Source: an uncultured Gammaproteobacteria bacterium (lineage in GTDB: Bacteria; Pseudomonadota; Gammaproteobacteria; Pseudomonadales; UBA5518). From it: a DNA stretch of 34,293 bases. The notes beneath the pieces were generated by a model that did no database searches, had not been told where the DNA came from, and saw nothing but the letters and a program-made list of their open reading frames with translations. The stretch covers positions 1-34,293 of the forward strand of contig CAIYPF010000077.1 in NCBI GenBank assembly GCA_903928015.1, in the 5' to 3' direction. How positions within the stretch are numbered: position 1 is the first letter of the stretch; each line of letters begins with the position of its first letter. Both the position numbers and the translations under genes were made by a program. This document shows positions 4,162 through 34,219 of the stretch, piece after piece.

Positions 4162-4370
4162 GTGGTTTTCCGTGTATCGGGTTGCGGCGCACCCGACGTG
4201 CGCGTCAGGTTGCGGAGTCTAGCAGCGCGTGCGGCCGGCGCTGTTCCTGTGCGGCACTCCGAGGTGTCGCTGGCTGTGTCGTGGCGGGTGGTGTCATGCG
4301 TCCGCATGAGGCAGACTCCCGGCGCAGGCGTCACGCTGCGCGGCGCCCCTTCCGGACGGAGATGATCTGC
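4162..4370. promoter_or_regulatory. Divergent intergenic region (crotonase / B12 subunit)
   Basis: This 209-bp gap separates two outward-facing genes, so it must carry promoters for both. I see no convincing -35/-10 pair, operator palindrome, cobalamin riboswitch box or small open reading frame in it. GGACGGAG at 4354-4361 serves as the ribosome-binding site of the downstream gene. Confidence 0.4.
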
Positions 4371-4787
4371 ATGGCACCACCGCTTCGCGTGCTGCTCGCC
4401 AAACTCGGCCTGGACACCCACACCGTGGGTGTCACGGTGATCGCGCACGCGCTGCGCGACGCCGGTATGGAAGTGATCTTCACGGGGCTCAAGCAGAGCG
4501 CGGCCACGGTGGCTGCCACGGCCATCCAGGAAGACGTCGACGTGGTGGGCGTTTCCTCGCTCTCGGCGGCGCATATGCGCCACATTCCCGAACTCGCCCG
4601 CTTGCTGCGCGAACAGGGCGGGGGCGACAAACTCCTCATCGTGGGGGGCGTGGTTCCCGAGGAAGACCAGGTGGCGCTGCACGCGGCGGGCGTTGCGCGC
4701 ATTTTCACCATGGGTGCCAGCACGCAGGATATCGTCGATTACCTGAATGCCTGGCGCAGCGAACGCGACGCGTCAGCGCAGTCCTGA
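4371..4787 (+). CDS. B12-binding small subunit of an acyl-CoA mutase
   Basis: A 138-residue stand-alone cobalamin-binding domain like the C-terminal domain of methylmalonyl-CoA mutase or the small subunits of isobutyryl-CoA and 2-hydroxyisobutyryl-CoA mutases. The B12 signature is complete: Asp15-x-His17-xx-Gly20 in GLDTHTVG (His17 would be the lower axial cobalt ligand), SSL at 62-64 and GG at 92-93. Such subunits need a separate large catalytic subunit, which is not in this window. The ATG at 4371 is preferred because GGACGGAG ends nine bases upstream; an in-frame ATG at 4362 has no room for it. The 3' end overlaps the out-of-frame tail of the convergent glycosyltransferase. The MeaB-type GTPase at 7010 is its likely partner. 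Confidence 0.88.
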   Translation: MAPPLRVLLAKLGLDTHTVGVTVIAHALRDAGMEVIFTGLKQSAATVAATAIQEDVDVVGVSSLSAAHMRHIPELARLLREQGGGDKLLIVGGVVPEEDQVALHAAGVARIFTMGASTQDIVDYLNAWRSERDASAQS

Positions 4788-4927
4788 TCCTTCCACACTG
4801 AAGGCTTCCGCCGGCGCGCCGCTCAAGTGGCGCTCCCACATCCGCGTGTAAGCGGATTCCACTCCCCGCGCAAAGGCATCGGCGTCGAAGAGCACCGAGC
4901 GTTCCGCGTCTGCAGCAATGTTTTTTT
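4773..4927 (-). other. A7 frameshift site and out-of-frame C-terminal tail of the glycosyltransferase
   Basis: On the coding strand the reading is GAG AAA AAA ACA, with seven A's (complement of 4921-4927). A -1 shift, or one more A, continues as K-K-N-I-A-A-D and then SVLFDADAFARGVESAY followed by TRMWERHL, ending at the TGA at 4773. This LFD-x3-F-x-R-x-(V/L)E-x-AY-x-x-MW pattern is the normal end of bacterial GT41 proteins, so the tail belongs to this gene. The cause may be a real one-base deletion, a homopolymer base-calling error, or slippage of polymerase or ribosome on the A run. Confidence 0.8.
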
Positions 4928-6895
4928 CTCCCCCGCTAGGCGCTGCGGGTCCAACGCCAGCTCGAGCGCGAGGCGCTCGTAGTCCTCGAGGGTCGAGGTC
5001 AGCAAGCCGGGCATGCCCGCAGCACGCAGCAGGCTGCCCGCCATGCGGGCCGCAAAGCCGTGTCCGGCGCAGCTCACGATCGGCAGCCCCGCGCGCAGCG
5101 CATCGTTGGCCGTTGTGCCAGCGTTGTATGGCAGCGTGTCGAGGAAGATGTCGGCGGCAGCGAGCCGTGCCATGTACTCCCGAACACCGACTCGGGGCGA
5201 GAAAACAAGCCGCGCCGGATCCACGCCGCGCGCTGCCGCCTCTGCGCAGAGATTGCGCCGCACTGCGGGCAGGTTCTCTACCAGCCACAACACCGATCCC
5301 GGCACCTTCTGCAGCAGACGCATCCATGCCGAGAAGAATTCCGGCGTGATCTTGTAGGGGTTGTTGAAGGCGCAGAACACCACGCCTTCTGCCGGCAATC
5401 CGCAGTGCTGCCGTGACGCGGGTGGCAGGGGTTCGGGCGAGAGCGGCGCGCAGGACTGGAAGCACCCGGGCAGCCGCACGATCCGCTCGTCGTAGAAGGG
5501 CTGGTCTTCTTCCGGCGTGACGAAGGCATCGCCCAGTACGTAGTCGATGTACTGCGCGCACATCGCGCCCGGATATCCGAGGTAGGCCACCTGCACGGGC
5601 GCGGGTCGCCGCGCCAGGATGCCCAGCCTGCATCCCAGGGTGTGACCGTTCAGGTCGATCAGGATATCCACGCCGTCGTCGCGGATGCGCTGCGCGCCGC
5701 TTTCCATCGACAGGGTGCGGATGTCCGCAAAGGTGTCCACCGCAGAGACGATGCGCTTTCGCTCCGCGCTGCCGTCGTCCACACCGTGTGAGTAGGCGTG
5801 CACGCTGAAGCGGCTTCGGTCGTGCCGCTCCAGCAGATCGGTGATCAGCCAGGCCACCGGATGCCGCCGGAAGTCCGAGGAGAGATAGCCGATGCGGATC
5901 CGCTCCCGGCGCTCCGGCGGCCGTGGCGGGAGCGCCTGTATGCCGCCACCCATGCGGTATGACATGCGACGCGCGGCGAGCGCCTGCGTGAAGGGATCGT
6001 CGGTGGCGATCATCACGTCGAAGGGAGAGACATCCTGCGAGCCCGCCTGTACCAGCGCGAGTACATCCGCGCGCTCGGCAGGATAGTTGCGCCAGTCGCA
6101 GAGGTGGCGGCGCTGGTGGGCGATCCCCACGCGTGCTCCGCCGTGTGAGGGATCCACATTGGCGGCTGACGCATAGGCATCCACGGCCTCTTCCAGTCGC
6201 TGCGCTGCCACCAGTGCGTGCCCGAGGTTGTAGTACGCCTCGCCCATCGCCGGATTCAGTTCGAGCGCGTGCCTGTAGGCGGCGATAGCCTGATCGACAT
6301 GTCCCAGGTGACGCAGCGCCGCGCCGAGATTCGCGTGCGCATCGGCGAGTTCGGGTTTTGCGGCGATGGCCTCTCGCGTGAGGCGCGCCGCAGCGGCCGG
6401 GTCTCCGGTCTGCAGCATCAGCACGCCGAGGTTGTTCAGCACTTCGGGATAGCGCGGCTGCCGGACGAGAATGTCCTCGTAGAGCCGACGAGCCGTAGCG
6501 GTATCGCCCTGGTGGTGGGCGCGCGTGGCCTCGTGCTTGCGCGCGATCTCCGCGCGCAGCCCCGCAAGCACGCGCGCCGCGCCACCGAGCTCCGGGCGTT
6601 TGGCGAGCGCGAGTTCGAAGAGCGCCGCGGCATCCTCGGGAAGTCCGAGTTCCGCGCAGGCGTGGCCCAGGTTGTTGTGCATCACGGGGTCGTCGGGACG
6701 CGCCAGCAGCGCTTGCTCGATAAGCCGCTTTCCTGTGGCGGGGTCGCCGCGGCGACAGGCCACCACGCCCAGATAGTGCAGTGCCTGTGCGTTGGACGGC
6801 TCCCGCGCGAGCACTGCACGCAGCAGCGGTTCCGCAGCATCCGCTTCGCCTCGCTGCAGGGCCGCGATCGCCTGCGAGAGCGTCGGGTCGTTCAT
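4823..6895 (-). CDS. TPR / glycosyltransferase family 41 (OGT/SPINDLY-like), frameshifted C-terminus
   Basis: Read as given, a 690-residue protein: TPR repeats over about residues 1-260, then a GT41 domain like O-GlcNAc transferase and SPINDLY. Catalytic-domain landmarks are RIGYLSSDFRRHP (His345 at the position of the catalytic-site His of human OGT), LIDLNGHTLGCRLGI, AYLGYPGAM, FNNPYKI (Lys515, matching the UDP-contacting Lys), LWLVENLP and DTLPYNAGTTANDALRAG. Such enzymes transfer a sugar from a nucleotide-sugar to protein Ser/Thr. After Lys658 the frame leaves the family sequence and adds 32 unrelated residues; the expected ending is found one frame away (see 4773-4927), giving 707 residues if restored. 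The start at 6895 (MNDPTLSQAI) is favoured over 6961. It sits antisense between the B12 subunit and meaB and looks functionally separate from them. Confidence 0.85.
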   Translation of the reverse strand: MNDPTLSQAIAALQRGEADAAEPLLRAVLAREPSNAQALHYLGVVACRRGDPATGKRLIEQALLARPDDPVMHNNLGHACAELGLPEDAAALFELALAKRPELGGAARVLAGLRAEIARKHEATRAHHQGDTATARRLYEDILVRQPRYPEVLNNLGVLMLQTGDPAAAARLTREAIAAKPELADAHANLGAALRHLGHVDQAIAAYRHALELNPAMGEAYYNLGHALVAAQRLEEAVDAYASAANVDPSHGGARVGIAHQRRHLCDWRNYPAERADVLALVQAGSQDVSPFDVMIATDDPFTQALAARRMSYRMGGGIQALPPRPPERRERIRIGYLSSDFRRHPVAWLITDLLERHDRSRFSVHAYSHGVDDGSAERKRIVSAVDTFADIRTLSMESGAQRIRDDGVDILIDLNGHTLGCRLGILARRPAPVQVAYLGYPGAMCAQYIDYVLGDAFVTPEEDQPFYDERIVRLPGCFQSCAPLSPEPLPPASRQHCGLPAEGVVFCAFNNPYKITPEFFSAWMRLLQKVPGSVLWLVENLPAVRRNLCAEAAARGVDPARLVFSPRVGVREYMARLAAADIFLDTLPYNAGTTANDALRAGLPIVSCAGHGFAARMAGSLLRAAGMPGLLTSTLEDYERLALELALDPQRLAGEKKTLLQTRNARCSSTPMPLRGEWNPLTRGCGSAT

Positions 6896-7009
6896 GGGTT
6901 TGGTCCGCGTTGCATGAGCCGATTCTAGCCCGTGCGCAGCCGCGAGGATTGGCGCGGTCACCCGATGCGCCTACCATCGGCCCGGTTTGCATCCTCGGGC
7001 GACGTCAGC

Positions 7010-7984
7010 GTGAAAGACCCCAATACCCTAGAGATCGCTTCCCGCGTGCTGGCGGGCGAGGTGCCTGCCGGTGCGCGCCTGATCCGTTGGCTGGAAGACG
7101 ATGATCCGCGCGGTGCCGCTGTGCTTGCCGAGCTCTATCCGCACACCGGGCGCGCGCGCGTGGTGGGCATTACGGGGGCGCCCGGCGCGGGCAAATCGAC
7201 CTTGGCGGGCATGCTTATCGGCGAACTCCGCGCGCGGGGCCAGAAGGTGGGCGTGGTGGCGGTGGATCCTTCGAGTCCGTTCTCCGGAGGAGCCGTGCTG
7301 GGAGACCGCATCCGCATGCAGCAGCACGCCGCGGACCCGGGCGTGTTCATCCGTTCCATGGGCAGCCGCGGCCAGCACGGAGGTCTTGCGCGTGCGAGCT
7401 TCGACGCGCTGCTGGTGCTCGATGCGATGGGCTACGACACCATCCTCGTCGAGACAGTGGGCGTGGGGCAGGAGGAGATCGAGATCGTCTCTCTCGCAGA
7501 CACCACGCTCATCGTGGCGGTGCCGGGTCTCGGTGACGAGGTGCAGGCGATCAAGGCTGGCCTCATGGAGGCGGGCGATGTGTTCGTGCTGAACAAGGCC
7601 GACCGCGATGGCGCACCGGAAACCCGACGCCAGCTCGAGCTGGCGCTTCACCTGCGTACGCAGCACCACGGCGAGGGCGCGTGGATTCCGCCCGTGATAC
7701 CCGCCGTGGCTGCGCGGCGCGAGGGCGGTGCCGCCGTGCTCGATGCCGTGGACGCACACACGCAATCGTTGCGGGAAAGCGGCGAAATCACCGCGCGCAG
7801 ATCTGCCCGCGCGTATGCCGTGTTCCACAAGCTGCTGCGTGATGCAGCCGCGCGACGACTGCTCGAGGCCGCTCTCGCGCGCCCCGATGCCGCAGCGCTC
7901 GTCGAGGGCGTGCGATCGCTGTCGATCGATCCGCACGCAGCAGCCGCGAGCCTGGTGTCGCGGCTGGAACTCGCCGGCATCTGA
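7010..7984 (+). CDS. meaB: MeaB/ArgK-family GTPase, chaperone of B12-dependent mutase
   Basis: A 324-residue SIMIBI-class G protein that guards and reloads adenosylcobalamin-dependent acyl-CoA mutases. Visible are the P-loop GAPGAGKST (about 56-64), the family signature VDPSSPFSGGAVLGDRIRM (about 86-104), the switch segment ETVGVGQEEIEI, the base-recognition NKAD and a helical C-terminal dimerisation arm. The GTG at 7010 gives the usual family N-terminus and length; GTG 6932 or ATG 6965 are in frame but add non-conserved residues. It is followed after only 13 bp by the gene at 7998, so they are probably co-transcribed. The B12-binding subunit at 4371 is the likely client; the large mutase subunit must be encoded elsewhere. 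Confidence 0.9.
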   Translation: MKDPNTLEIASRVLAGEVPAGARLIRWLEDDDPRGAAVLAELYPHTGRARVVGITGAPGAGKSTLAGMLIGELRARGQKVGVVAVDPSSPFSGGAVLGDRIRMQQHAADPGVFIRSMGSRGQHGGLARASFDALLVLDAMGYDTILVETVGVGQEEIEIVSLADTTLIVAVPGLGDEVQAIKAGLMEAGDVFVLNKADRDGAPETRRQLELALHLRTQHHGEGAWIPPVIPAVAARREGGAAVLDAVDAHTQSLRESGEITARRSARAYAVFHKLLRDAAARRLLEAALARPDAAALVEGVRSLSIDPHAAAASLVSRLELAGI

Positions 7985-7997
7985 GCCGTACCGGCAG

Positions 7998-9002
7998 ATG
8001 GATTCGGCATCCGTCGCGTGGCTTCCGTTGGCATGGACGGGCACGCGCCTCGCGGATTTCCAGCCCTACGTGCCTGCCATCGACGACAGCGGCGCAGTGG
8101 TGTTCCAGGCGGGGCTTGCCGGAGGTGCAAGCGGAGTGTTCGTCGCTCGCGGCGATGCCGTGGAATCGCTTTTCCCGACGATGCCCGAGCATCAGGTCTC
8201 GAGTCACCCCGACCGCAACGCGCGCGGCGATGCATGCGTATACGTGACGCGACAGGATGGCAGCAGCGCCGTGATCGGCGTGCAGCAAGGTCGCCCGATC
8301 AGTTACGCCGACTCCCGCCACGGTGTTTTCGCGGGCATCGCTCCGCTCGGACCGGTGATGGATGCAGACGGGAGCGTGGGGTTCCGTGCGTCGCTCGCTG
8401 ATGGCGGTGAGGCTGTCTGCGCGTGGGTTGGTGGCGAGGTGCATGTGCTAGCTCGCACGGGCGAGCAGTTCACGGCGTTTCATGGCCTGCCCGTCATCCG
8501 CGGGGCTGCAGCCGTGCTGTTCCGGGCTGACACCTGCGATGGCCTACAAGGTCTGTATCGGGCTACAGGATCACGCATGTGGCCGGTGTTCGAGCGGCCG
8601 GCAGCGCAGGGCAGACTCGCGTTTTTCCCGACTCAGAACGCCTCGGGTGAGGTCGTCTGTGGGTGGGCCTCGGTGGAGGGCGATGCCCGGGTGCTACGTA
8701 TCCGCGAGGGCTGTGAGCCGGTCGATGTCGACACCGGAGACATCCGGTTCGAGAGTCTTCGCGGCTGCCTGATGGGAGAGGGCGGAGAGCTCTGTTTCAC
8801 GGGCACGCCACGCGGAGGACGTCTTGGTTTGTATCGCGTGTTGGCGCGGGGAGTGGAGTGCCTGCTTGAAGAGGGTGGGCTGATTGAAGGCGCGCGCGTG
8901 CAGGCATTTGCGCTCAATCCTGTATCGATGAATGCGCGGGGACGTCTGGCGGTCCGGATCCTGTTGGACGATGGGCGCCAGCTGGTCGCGGCATCGCGCT
9001 GA
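7998..9002 (+). CDS. Uncharacterised beta-repeat protein (DUF7453-like)
   Basis: A 334-residue protein made of repeated blocks of the type 'D-D/A-x-G-x-V-x-F-x-A-x-L-x-x-G...G-V-x-V', for instance AIDDSGAVVFQAGLAGG near residue 29 and VMDADGSVGFRASLADG near residue 120, each followed by a short strand ending in L(F/A)-R-T-G-like residues. This pattern is known from beta-propeller-like proteins of unknown role with repeats naming 'variable, valid at' values; here no signal peptide or sorting tail is present, so the protein seems cytoplasmic. It begins 13 bp after meaB and likely shares its transcript, but I cannot connect its function to B12 metabolism. The two REP elements follow its stop codon. 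Confidence 0.65.
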   Translation: MDSASVAWLPLAWTGTRLADFQPYVPAIDDSGAVVFQAGLAGGASGVFVARGDAVESLFPTMPEHQVSSHPDRNARGDACVYVTRQDGSSAVIGVQQGRPISYADSRHGVFAGIAPLGPVMDADGSVGFRASLADGGEAVCAWVGGEVHVLARTGEQFTAFHGLPVIRGAAAVLFRADTCDGLQGLYRATGSRMWPVFERPAAQGRLAFFPTQNASGEVVCGWASVEGDARVLRIREGCEPVDVDTGDIRFESLRGCLMGEGGELCFTGTPRGGRLGLYRVLARGVECLLEEGGLIEGARVQAFALNPVSMNARGRLAVRILLDDGRQLVAASR

Positions 9003-16365: not shown

Positions 16366-17820
16366 TTACTTGATGTTCTCGAGATCAGGCAAAGCCCAGG
16401 TCTTGTTGAAATAGGCTTCTGTGGGTGCATAGAGGCGGAAGTACGTGAACCAGCCTTTTCCGGGCACCGTCTGCACGAAGTTCGCGTTTGCAGTGGCCGG
16501 CTTGCGGGGTCCGAAGTAGAGATCCACCGAGCCATCGGCGTTCACGTCGAGTCCGGCTTTGCGCGATGAGATGTCGGCACCACCCTGCGGGGTCTGCAGT
16601 GGCGCACGGCTGGTGTTCTCGTAGAGCGTGAAGGACCAGAACTGCTTTACCGGCGCGTTCGGTGGTACGCGCAGGTGATAGTTCTTGCCGCCGTCCAGCC
16701 AGGCACCGTCCTTGTCCCTGCTCGTTTCCAGATAAACCTGACCGAAGCCGAGGATGCGGCCCTGCATGCCAGAGGTGTTGCCGATCGCTTCGTAGAACCA
16801 GGACGCGCGTTCGTCGAGTTGCGAGAACGCGGGGGTCTGCTGGTCGAGCTCCACCATGTTCGCGTATTCCCACCGCGTGCCCTCGAACACGGTGGCACCG
16901 GGAAAGCGTTTGTCGAAGGCGTTTGCGCGCGCCATCAATTCGCCCGCCAGCGCGGCGTCGGCAAGGATTTTCCGCCGACGCGCATCCGGCGCGAAGGGCT
17001 TGCCCGGTTCGATGCCCAGCGAGCGCAGCATCGCGTGGAAGTACCCGTCGCGGATTTCCACGGGCTCGGGCTCGAGGATGGATTTCAGTTGCTCGAAGTA
17101 GCGTATGTCGCTCGGCTGCCAGGAGGCCCACTCGCGGCCACCTACCGGGATGTACTTGGTCTCGCCGGGCGTTTCGCGATCGTTCCAGGCATAGACGCGG
17201 TGTTTGCGCACGGTGGCTTCGGCCTCGACAGGATCCGCAGAGAGCCCGCGCGTGCCGAACCAGATCTGGTTGGTGGGTGAGCGCACCACGTGGTAGCCCG
17301 GCGGATTGAGTTCCGGGCCGCCCGGGGGAAGGATGAGGTATTTGCCGCCGAGGCCCTGATCGGGCCCGGTCTGGCCCATGTCGATCACCGGCCGTTGCCA
17401 GATGTCGTCGATGCCGCCGGCAGTGGCGCCTGCAGGCACCTCGACCACCAGAGGGCCCTGCTCGGCCATGTTCCAGAAAGTGAAGGCGTAGAGCGTGGTC
17501 AGGTTCGGCGTGAGCATGCCCGCCTTGTCCTTCAGGCTCTGGTACATGACGATTTCGCCGTCACGCGCGCCGAAGTTCTTGCGCTGCGCCTCGCGCAGTC
17601 CGTAGAAGCCCACCGCAGGCAGGCCCCACATGAAGGCCTGCGTTGCCCGCTGGAACTCCATCTCGTCGTAGAGCTTCTCCATGGACGCGGAAGAGGGGTA
17701 ACCGTTTTCGAGTTGCAGTTTTCCGATCCGTGTCGAGACAGTCTCCGATTGCGCCGGAGATGCCGTGAACAGCGCCATCTGCAGGGCGGTGGCGGTCAGC
17801 AGGGCGATGTGCTTTCGCAT
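16366..17820 (-). CDS. Secreted DUF1254/DUF1214 protein
   Basis: A 484-residue periplasmic protein: signal peptide (MRKHIALLTATALQMALF, cut near AQS-E), a DUF1254 half with FMWGLPAVGFYGLREAQ and MLTPNLTTLYAFTFWNM, and a DUF1214 half with FWSFTLYENTSRAPL, NADGSVDLYFGPR and GWFTYFRLYAPTEAYF then NKTWALPDLE. No catalytic residues are known for this family. It is the second gene of a pair: the start lies 8 bp after the stop of the DUF1254 lipoprotein gene at 17829, so they share a transcript. The closing segments match those of its neighbour, hence paralogues. The ATG at 17820 is chosen because it begins the signal peptide. Confidence 0.88.
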   Translation of the reverse strand: MRKHIALLTATALQMALFTASPAQSETVSTRIGKLQLENGYPSSASMEKLYDEMEFQRATQAFMWGLPAVGFYGLREAQRKNFGARDGEIVMYQSLKDKAGMLTPNLTTLYAFTFWNMAEQGPLVVEVPAGATAGGIDDIWQRPVIDMGQTGPDQGLGGKYLILPPGGPELNPPGYHVVRSPTNQIWFGTRGLSADPVEAEATVRKHRVYAWNDRETPGETKYIPVGGREWASWQPSDIRYFEQLKSILEPEPVEIRDGYFHAMLRSLGIEPGKPFAPDARRRKILADAALAGELMARANAFDKRFPGATVFEGTRWEYANMVELDQQTPAFSQLDERASWFYEAIGNTSGMQGRILGFGQVYLETSRDKDGAWLDGGKNYHLRVPPNAPVKQFWSFTLYENTSRAPLQTPQGGADISSRKAGLDVNADGSVDLYFGPRKPATANANFVQTVPGKGWFTYFRLYAPTEAYFNKTWALPDLENIK

Positions 17821-17828
17821 GGTGTGTC

Positions 17829-19226
17829 TCACTTGGTTTCCTTGAGTGCAGGCAGGGTCCACGATCCGTCCATGAGCGAGGCGCGTGGCCCGTAGAAGCG
17901 CGCGACAAAAAAGAACGGTCCGGCGGGGGCGGGCAACCAGTTGCCCGTCTTTCCAGCGCCCGGATCGGTGTTCTGGATGTAGATTTCCAGAGAGCCGTCT
18001 GCGCCCGGTGTCAGACTGGCGGTGCGATCACCGACCGAGTACCGGTTGAGCGGATTGTCCACCAGCAGGCGTTCAGGCAGCTTGTACATGGTGATCGACC
18101 AGAAGAGGTCTACCGGCGGCAACTGGCCTTTTTCGAAGCGCAGCACCCACTTCCTGGTGCCGTCCAGAATCTTGCCGTCCGGGCCTTTCTGCTGGCTCGC
18201 GTAAACGGCTTCTTCCTTGGTGTTGCCGTAGATGCCGAGCATCGCCCCCATCGCGCGGTTCATCACGTAATCGTTGCCGAGGGCTTCGCGGGTGCCGAAG
18301 AACTTCTTGGATTCGGTCTGGGCAATCGCCGTCGTGGAGAGCTCCTCCGAGGCGTCCGCGATGCCGGCCTCGATGGCCGCTCGCGTGGCGGCAGGCAGCG
18401 CGTCGGGATCGAAGGCCTTGCCCGGAGCGATGCCGATCTTCGCGAAGCGCTCGAACGCTGCTTTCTCGGCGGGCACGGCAGGCATCAAGGGCAGCAGCGC
18501 GTTCAGGTAGGAAATGAAACCGATGCCTTCTGCCCGGGTCTTGTCCCACGGTGGCAGCAGCAACTGCGGAGCGGCTGCAGGCGCCGGCGTGCCGGCGAAT
18601 TGCGAGAGGGGAGTCAGGCGGTAGTGCGCCTGCAGTGCCGCCATCGCCGGAAGATCGGCGTCGCCGTTCAACTGGGTGCGTGTCAGCGTGCCGACGATAT
18701 CGGTTTCGCTACGGAACACCTGCGCGATGCCCGGCGGGACCTGGCCATTCCAGTGCGGACCCGCGAACAGGTAGTTGCCTGCAGCGCGGCCCGTGGCGCG
18801 AACGCCGGTGTAGGCAAAGTTGTGGGTGTAGAGATCGAACCACTGGTTCACGTAGTAGCGCGGAGCCGCCACTGCGGGCAGGGACAGGACAATCGGTTCG
18901 GCGCGCAGGTCGAGCCAGGCCCAGGAGTAGGGCGTGTCATTGTTGGGAGTGACGATGTCTGCATCAGCCGGTGTGTACAGGCGCGAGTAGTGGCGAAAGC
19001 GGTTGAAGCCGCCGACGTAGGCGTTGGATGCCGGATCCAGGGCCTGTGTGTAGAGCGTCTGATAGCCCTGCAACGGAGCGTAGGCATAGAGCCATGCTTC
19101 CCTGGCAATCGCACGCGTCTCGTCCGGCCCGGGCGCGCCCGTCAGCGAAGAGCACGACGCAAGAAGGCCGAGGGCCAATGTCAGGGGAAGACGGTGTCTG
19201 AAGCGCAGAATCAGGTTGAGAAGCAT
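17829..19226 (-). CDS. DUF1254/DUF1214 lipoprotein
   Basis: A 465-residue protein with a lipoprotein signal; the lipobox is L-A-S-C with Cys25, so it should be anchored to a membrane, probably the outer one. DUF1254 part: REAWLYAYAPLQGYQTLY, TPNNDTPYSWAWLDLRAEP. DUF1214 part: VDLFWSITMYKLPERLL, GADGSLEIYIQNTDPG, NWLPAPAGPFFFVARFYGP, then a last DGSWTLPALKE. Both halves align with the gene just downstream. AAGGA seven bases before the ATG at 19226 supports the start. It is transcribed away from the LysR gene at 19373, its probable regulator. Role unknown; a substrate-handling job in the envelope is only inference. Confidence 0.88.
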   Translation of the reverse strand: MLLNLILRFRHRLPLTLALGLLASCSSLTGAPGPDETRAIAREAWLYAYAPLQGYQTLYTQALDPASNAYVGGFNRFRHYSRLYTPADADIVTPNNDTPYSWAWLDLRAEPIVLSLPAVAAPRYYVNQWFDLYTHNFAYTGVRATGRAAGNYLFAGPHWNGQVPPGIAQVFRSETDIVGTLTRTQLNGDADLPAMAALQAHYRLTPLSQFAGTPAPAAAPQLLLPPWDKTRAEGIGFISYLNALLPLMPAVPAEKAAFERFAKIGIAPGKAFDPDALPAATRAAIEAGIADASEELSTTAIAQTESKKFFGTREALGNDYVMNRAMGAMLGIYGNTKEEAVYASQQKGPDGKILDGTRKWVLRFEKGQLPPVDLFWSITMYKLPERLLVDNPLNRYSVGDRTASLTPGADGSLEIYIQNTDPGAGKTGNWLPAPAGPFFFVARFYGPRASLMDGSWTLPALKETK

Positions 19227-33580: not shown

Positions 33581-34219
33581 TCAGGATGCCTTGCGGCGCC
33601 TGATGACCCCCATTCCCGCCAATCCGAGTCCCAGCAAGCCGAGCGTTCCGGGCAAGGGAACTGCGTTGACAGACACGTTGTCGAGCGAGCCGCCATAGGT
33701 GTCCGAGTTGCCCACCGCGCGGAACTCGAGAGTGTTGGATCCGGCGATGCCCGTGACGATTGCCGAGTACAGGGTCCATGCGGTGTTGTTGGTGCCGTTG
33801 CCGGAGTTTCCGGGCGCGAACAGGTTGCCGATGTCCGTGCCGTTCAGCCAGATTTCGATGCCGTTGGTTGATGCGTCGGTGCCCGGTCGCGCGGCATACC
33901 AGTAGGAGATGTCGAGTACGGAACCGGGGCTGCTGAAGGTTTGCGACATCCAGCTGTTACCCGGGTTCGGGTGGGAGTCGAGTTCAACGAAGTTGACGCC
34001 GTCCTGCGCGGTCCCGGAGACGTTGTTCCTGATCTCGATGCCCGGGCCGGAGGTTGTTGTCCAGCCATCTATGCTCGGGTACACGTTCCACGTTCCCGAG
34101 GCCTGTGTTGTGGTTTCGAAGCTGCCATTGGTAAGTAGCGAGGCGCCGTGACAGACGCCGGAAAAGGCAATGACGCTTGCAACTGCTGCAAGACGGCCTG
34201 CGATGGATCGGATAGCCAT
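33581..34219 (-). CDS. PEP-CTERM-sorted extracellular protein
   Basis: A 212-residue exported protein: signal peptide (MAIRSIAGRLAAVASVIAFS, cut near CHG-A), a beta-sandwich domain with NGSFETTTQASGTWNVYPSI and GIEIRNNVSGTAQDGVNFVEL, and a PEP-CTERM tail (VPLPGTLGLLGLGLAG then MGVIRRRKAS; residues ~187-212). The tail, a VPLP motif, hydrophobic helix and RRRK end, is cut by an exosortase linked to exopolysaccharide export in biofilm or floc formers. The domain resembles DUF642/choice-of-anchor proteins. AAGGAG before the ATG at 34219 is strong. The exosortase is not in the window. Confidence 0.88.
   Translation of the reverse strand: MAIRSIAGRLAAVASVIAFSGVCHGASLLTNGSFETTTQASGTWNVYPSIDGWTTTSGPGIEIRNNVSGTAQDGVNFVELDSHPNPGNSWMSQTFSSPGSVLDISYWYAARPGTDASTNGIEIWLNGTDIGNLFAPGNSGNGTNNTAWTLYSAIVTGIAGSNTLEFRAVGNSDTYGGSLDNVSVNAVPLPGTLGLLGLGLAGMGVIRRRKAS

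Follow-up and report, generated by a model that had tools for sequence, protein, structure and literature searches.

The window (the whole stretch of 34,293 nucleotides that was analysed) carries on its minus strand a gene for a GT41 glycosyltransferase whose C-terminal tail lies in a different reading frame from the rest of the protein. The explanation that we regard as very probable is an isolated one-base indel near positions 4893-4904, past a run of seven A's (A7), which would be either a recent mutation of the strain or a single error of the draft, with no programmed frameshifting involved. In an accessory GT41 gene that is otherwise intact, such an indel would displace the final 39 codons from the reading frame, and the gene as written would then encode a protein of 690 residues that keeps the catalytic core, loses the C-terminal helix and is probably unstable or impaired. 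The features concerned are:

4823-6895, minus strand: GT41 gene in its frame-0 reading of 690 aa, encoding TPR repeats and the GT41 catalytic domain (ORF list, translation, Pfam PF13844 and TPR models)
4773-4892, minus strand: displaced C-terminal tail in the other frame, 39 codons (LFD...GLR) plus stop, which encodes the final long helix of the fold (translation, DNA alignment, model of the relative, homologs)
4826-4903, minus strand: the 26 residues with which frame 0 ends, out of frame and unmatched in the relative L005 (translation, alignment)
4893-4904, minus strand: best-supported interval for the frame change, bounded by a conserved Arg codon whose end is at 4904 and by the LFD codons, which begin at 4892 (tblastn, Pfam, DNA gap, codon usage plus BLOSUM, family anchors)
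4921-4927, minus strand: the A7 run (T7 on the plus strand), named in the preliminary description and not the best-supported break point (sequence, junction scoring)

The C-terminal tail of the GT41 gene

Judged from its sequence, the gene encodes a GT41 glycosyltransferase with TPR repeats. Its product matches PF13844 (GT41) in Pfam at 250.6 bits against a cut-off of 25 (E 3e-74), and is probably a protein-glycosylating enzyme. Among 20 sequences that include the window protein, a lysine of the catalytic domain (K515) is invariant and a histidine (H345, in DF..HP) is conserved in at least 90%; the window protein has both, and the lysine presumably corresponds to K842 of hOGT.

Frame 0 runs from an ATG at 6895 to a stop codon at 4823-4825, giving 690 aa in the ORF list and translation, and the last 26 of these residues are out of frame. 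The tail frame gives LFDADAFARGVESAYTRMWERH... and ends, again in both the ORF list and the translation, at a stop codon at 4773-4775. Translation with read-through into this frame yields 707 aa, and with the displaced tail the whole gene spans 6895-4773 on the minus strand. The A7, the lengths of 690 and 707 residues, the LFD-F-R-E-AY-MW ending and the stop at 4773 had all been reported in the preliminary description, and all are seen in the sequence or its translation.

The same description had proposed that a one-base frameshift cuts the enzyme off from the tail at its own C-terminus, and had suggested aligning the relatives and asking whether they keep the frame-0 ending. They keep the tail instead, which bears the proposal out. 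The nearest relative found (L005, from genome G001 of the same genus) is 79% identical, is 707 aa long and has the tail in frame. All 30 filtered homologs, which are not a blind sample since the cut at residue 640 favours homologs that reach the tail, continue in frame over 18 or more residues, counted from the F of LFD; 23 of the 30 have this F, and 27 have the tail Glu. The 30 homologs counted, which include L005 and a paralog from the genome analysed here (L002), were taken from 41 homologous frames that reached query residue 600; two of the 11 frames removed were duplicate loci (L057 and L038) and the others stopped short of residue 640 or had E >1e-60. The score against the profile of the 30 homologs rises from 269.1 bits for frame 0 alone to 302.9 bits for the best read-through. 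The LFD...E..AY..MW helix is not present in frame 0 and occurs only in the other frame, where, on these alignments, it is the ending of the GT41 family. Pfam returned no GT41 match for the tail-frame piece 4776-5063 taken alone, of which about half is out of frame.

The structure model of L005 (mean pLDDT 92.7) contains two confident helices in this region, one at residues 650-666 that spans the break and one at residues 672-691 in the tail (pLDDT blocks of 91-96), and it matches XcOGT (2jlb_A) with a TM-score of 0.94 by target at 35% identity. Because helix 672-691 of the model lies in the tail, and because the fold matches XcOGT, whose chain is covered by the family profile up to residue 563 of 568, loss of the tail would remove the last long helix. 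It could be argued that the protein truly ends as in frame 0 and that the tail is no part of the gene, as frame 0 is a plain ORF that carries the catalytic core. However, the filtered homologs, the 707-aa L005 among them, run into the tail in frame, its helix is confidently predicted in the L005 model and the 26-residue ending of frame 0 finds no counterpart in L005, and we give this reading practically no credence.

Position of the frame change

The enzyme had been described as reading normally to Lys658 and then diverging, with the split exactly at the A7. We found that frame 0 remains homologous for six codons more: after the A7 it reads TLLQTR where L005 has ALLRQR. It also supplies both of the family anchors that lie past the A7, Leu660 (26 of 30 homologs) and Arg664 (17 of 30), at which the tail frame reads Ile and Ala, while LFD is supplied by the tail frame only. 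With L005 as the query, tblastn follows frame 0 to 4904 and starts again in the other frame at 4898; the Pfam GT41 model, in a six-frame scan of the whole genome, matches frame 0 down to 4901, and the matches of the frame-0 protein to L005 end at residue 664. A single gap against the L005 DNA gave 48 matches out of 85 when placed at 4897-4899 and 39 out of 85 when placed within the A run; when the 28 bases after the run were shuffled, the observed gain of the downstream site was reached by 226 of 20000 shuffles. Codon usage combined with BLOSUM scores against L005 (flat prior) assigned 1.0% to the A run and 98.7% to 4916 and downstream, with the junction optimum at 4901-4913. A simple DNA likelihood, also with a flat prior, gave the A run at most 0.00001; this was judged overconfident, and the shuffle count was relied on instead. 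The claim of a split at the A7 is poorly supported by these results. The break most likely lies just downstream of the A7 and not within the run, the interval 4893-4904 being 17-28 bases past it, with a wider bound on the frame change of about 4892-4916.

Some of the measures were close to neutral. The profile of the 30 homologs alone favoured the downstream junction by only 2.0 bits (302.9 versus 300.9 at the A7), or 1.7 bits without L005. Codon usage alone picked no site, with log2 scores of -218.7 at 4910, -218.9 at 4940 and -219.2 at 4925, and the matches to PDB entries (XcOGT, SPINDLY and 5djs) extend no further than query residues 654-658, at or before the A7. Because L005 is the only close relative found, the fine placement of the break rests largely on one ortholog.

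The near-neutrality of the family profile and of codon usage between the two sites would suit an indel inside the A7 itself, arising by replication slippage or as a homopolymer miscall. The tail frame is open at the A7, which is the sole homopolymer of at least six in the GT41 gene, and homopolymers mutate and are mis-sequenced more often than other sites, which raises the prior for this position. We nevertheless consider an indel inside the run unlikely, as frame 0 is homologous past it in both protein and DNA and an A run of at least seven is found there in none of the 30 relatives. The case carries a caution: a frameshift close to a homopolymer may have occurred outside it, and testing which frame stays homologous past the run can shift the inferred break.

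Mutation or consensus error

In comparison with L005, the catalytic region has a dN of 0.11 and a dS of 0.75 over 329 codons and the tail a dN of 0.28 and a dS of 0.71 over 39 codons, which indicates clear constraint on the core and looser constraint on the tail. The differences at the three codon positions number 8/11/15 in the tail versus 41/28/128 in the core, and in the tail frame synonymous change exceeds non-synonymous change (pS 0.46, pN 0.24). The ORF list, the translation and the DNA comparison with L005 show the GT41 gene to be free of further breaks besides the C-terminal one. Because the rest of the gene is clean, as the core values indicate, the event would be either recent or artefactual. 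An error and a recent inactivating deletion were rightly listed as options in the preliminary description.

The window is contig 77 of a draft genome of 220 contigs and 4.27 Mb (97.2% complete, 2.27% contaminated). We performed a homology census of frameshifts in this draft, with L005 added as a positive control; the census is blind to breaks near gene ends and to genes without a relative of at least 50% identity in 1.2 Mb of G004 (plus L005), and within that reach, over 197 coding-like queries and 220,422 aligned nucleotides, the sole flagged frameshift was the GT41 gene, via L005. The reverse census, for breaks in G004 or L005, flagged none of 195. The first pass had returned 13 frameshift-like pairs for this genome and 17 in reverse; a filter for coding-like composition kept 197 of 539 queries here and 195 of 542 in reverse, after which 4 and 7 pairs were left, and only the GT41 gene passed in all four segments. 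Because the census flagged the GT41 gene alone, the draft is not generally frameshifted. A detector based only on codon usage made 40 calls in 344,677 bases here and 42 in 400,000 in G004, many of them ordinary gene overlaps by eye, and was set aside; its one call in the GT41 gene was at 4940, with a second frame of only 4 bases.

The genes on either side of the GT41 gene are:

4266-4787, plus strand: protein with the C-terminal (B12-binding) domain of methylmalonyl-CoA mutase, convergent, with a 15 bp overlap with the tail-frame stop (TIGR00640, ORF end)
6932-7984, plus strand: MeaB GTPase, divergent neighbour, given as the longest ORF, the true start of which may be further in (TIGR00750)

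In G001 the GT41 gene occupies the same place, flanked by MeaB and the mutase B12-domain protein. No GT41 gene separates the two neighbours in G004 and G005, where they are about 0.1-0.2 kb apart, and G002 and G003, which gave only weaker matches to either neighbour, are uninformative on the presence of the gene. Comparison of this locus (window 4266-7984; L166 and L167) identifies the GT41 gene as accessory, inserted here or lost elsewhere. A second GT41 gene (L002, L038) is found on contig 194 of the genome analysed here (G000), at 6433-8409; it is about 40% identical over the catalytic part and its frame is uninterrupted. A scan of genome contigs returned one distant locus, which is not an ortholog. 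It is plausible that the loss of a gene that is accessory, and possibly redundant, would be tolerated.

If a one-base indel past the A7 is the explanation, its two possible origins, i.e. a frameshift that arose recently in the strain sampled or an error in the consensus at one site, would have roughly even odds, and the sequence cannot separate them. To a single consensus or assembly error, with the gene intact in the organism, we give a chance a shade below even. It would accord with a draft in this many contigs and at this level of completeness and contamination, with the lack of a second break in the GT41 gene and with the excess of synonymous change still present in the tail frame. Against it, the census flagged no further frameshift over about 220 kb of aligned coding sequence, and by that test the draft is not error-laden; four of the 22 A/T runs of at least seven in the sample sit within one continuous homology match, the remaining runs being without a match to judge by. 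For a real and recent truncating mutation, with the accessory gene being lost in the lineage, the chance is somewhat below even. This origin would agree with the isolation of the frameshift in the census and with the distribution of the gene, which among six genomes of the same genus (G000-G005) is found between these neighbours only in G000 and G001, and the unbroken second GT41 gene means that its loss may be tolerated; against it, the gene has accumulated no additional inactivating change. An annotation of the gene should mark the frameshift and record the GT41 tail. The event is isolated and of an ordinary kind, affects an enzyme family that is already known and has little biological reach; no paper on such a case was among the literature matches listed.

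Possible recoding at the A7

The A7 had also been proposed as a slippery site giving two products. None of the 30 homologs has a run of at least seven A's within the 66 nt that surround the match end; the longest run is 2 in L005 and 6 in two distant homologs. Reading by eye, at the A7 only, showed no in-frame X XXY YYZ heptamer there (frame 0 is GAG AAA AAA ACA), and the 81 nt after the run gave no sign of a stimulatory RNA fold (z -0.82, with 42 of 200 shuffles folding at least as well). Its seven bases are below the roughly nine that we took for a long slippage run; the excerpt of one study reports that, in a large proportion of bacterial genomes, selection against slippage becomes visible at runs of nine bases (PMC1088944).

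For the A7 to be a site at which RNA polymerase or the ribosome slips, making products of 690 and 707 residues, there are precedents. Slippage is described on longer runs, e.g. A11 in Citrobacter rodentium tssM1 and A9 in a Yersinia tssM3 (PMC4256274, excerpt), and shorter sites reportedly slip elsewhere, e.g. GAAAAAA in potyviruses and iterated AAA codons, on which the ribosome slides, in E. coli (PMC5027478, PMC4363877); the frame-shifted product would moreover attain the family tail. We consider such a site highly unlikely, since the run has only seven A's and is absent from homologs, the heptamer is lacking, the downstream fold is ordinary and the linker produced by slippage would lose the conserved Leu and Arg; the proposal of a slippery site was therefore not upheld. 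The genes known to be read by slippage (C. rodentium tssM1, Yersinia tssM3, Thermus dnaX and mxiE) resemble the present one, as far as the excerpts go, in that an A run precedes a frame change, with an alternative C-terminus encoded in the other frame (PMC4256274, PMC1088944). They differ in that the run lengths stated in these excerpts are 9-11 A, compared with 7, not conserved, in this gene (PMC4256274, PMC1088944), and in that the frame change here most likely lies downstream of the run. A similarly slender chance attaches to weak slippage at the A7 that would partly rescue a broken allele, yielding mostly the 690-residue form and a little of the 707-residue form with an altered linker; if true, this would give two activity states of a protein-modifying enzyme.

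Comparison with known GT41 enzymes and other observations

A C-terminal frameshift in a GT41 enzyme is also described for Arabidopsis spy-20, in which the C-terminal end of plant SPINDLY (T880-S914) is affected, with a genetic phenotype (PMC10027727, excerpt). According to the same excerpt T880-S914 is absent from the cryo-EM density (PMC10027727), whereas the tail here is a confidently predicted helix in the L005 model. Xanthomonas campestris XcOGT (PDB 2jlb, 2vsy) shares with the window protein the TPR repeats, the GT41 catalytic domain and, on the L005 model, a matching fold. What sets the window gene apart from bacterial GT41 (OGT/SPINDLY-like) enzymes is that its final long helix lies in another frame; in L005 this helix is in frame.

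At window 5111-5128 (minus strand) the protein reads YNAGTT, the Gly being shared with L005, where the consensus of the 20 sequences has His (YNAHTT). Plant SPINDLY presumably likewise has Gly at this position. The donor sugar may differ. An intermediate group with mixed OGT and SPY residues, including some prokaryotic members, is mentioned in the excerpt of PMC10027727.

Elsewhere in the window, two adjacent long ORFs lie at 16366-19226 on the minus strand. By eye we take these to resemble DUF1254/DUF1214 proteins. A further ORF, at 33581-34219 on the minus strand, ends in VPLPGTLGLLGLGLAGMGVIRRRKAS, an ending that, again by eye, resembles a PEP-CTERM sorting signal.
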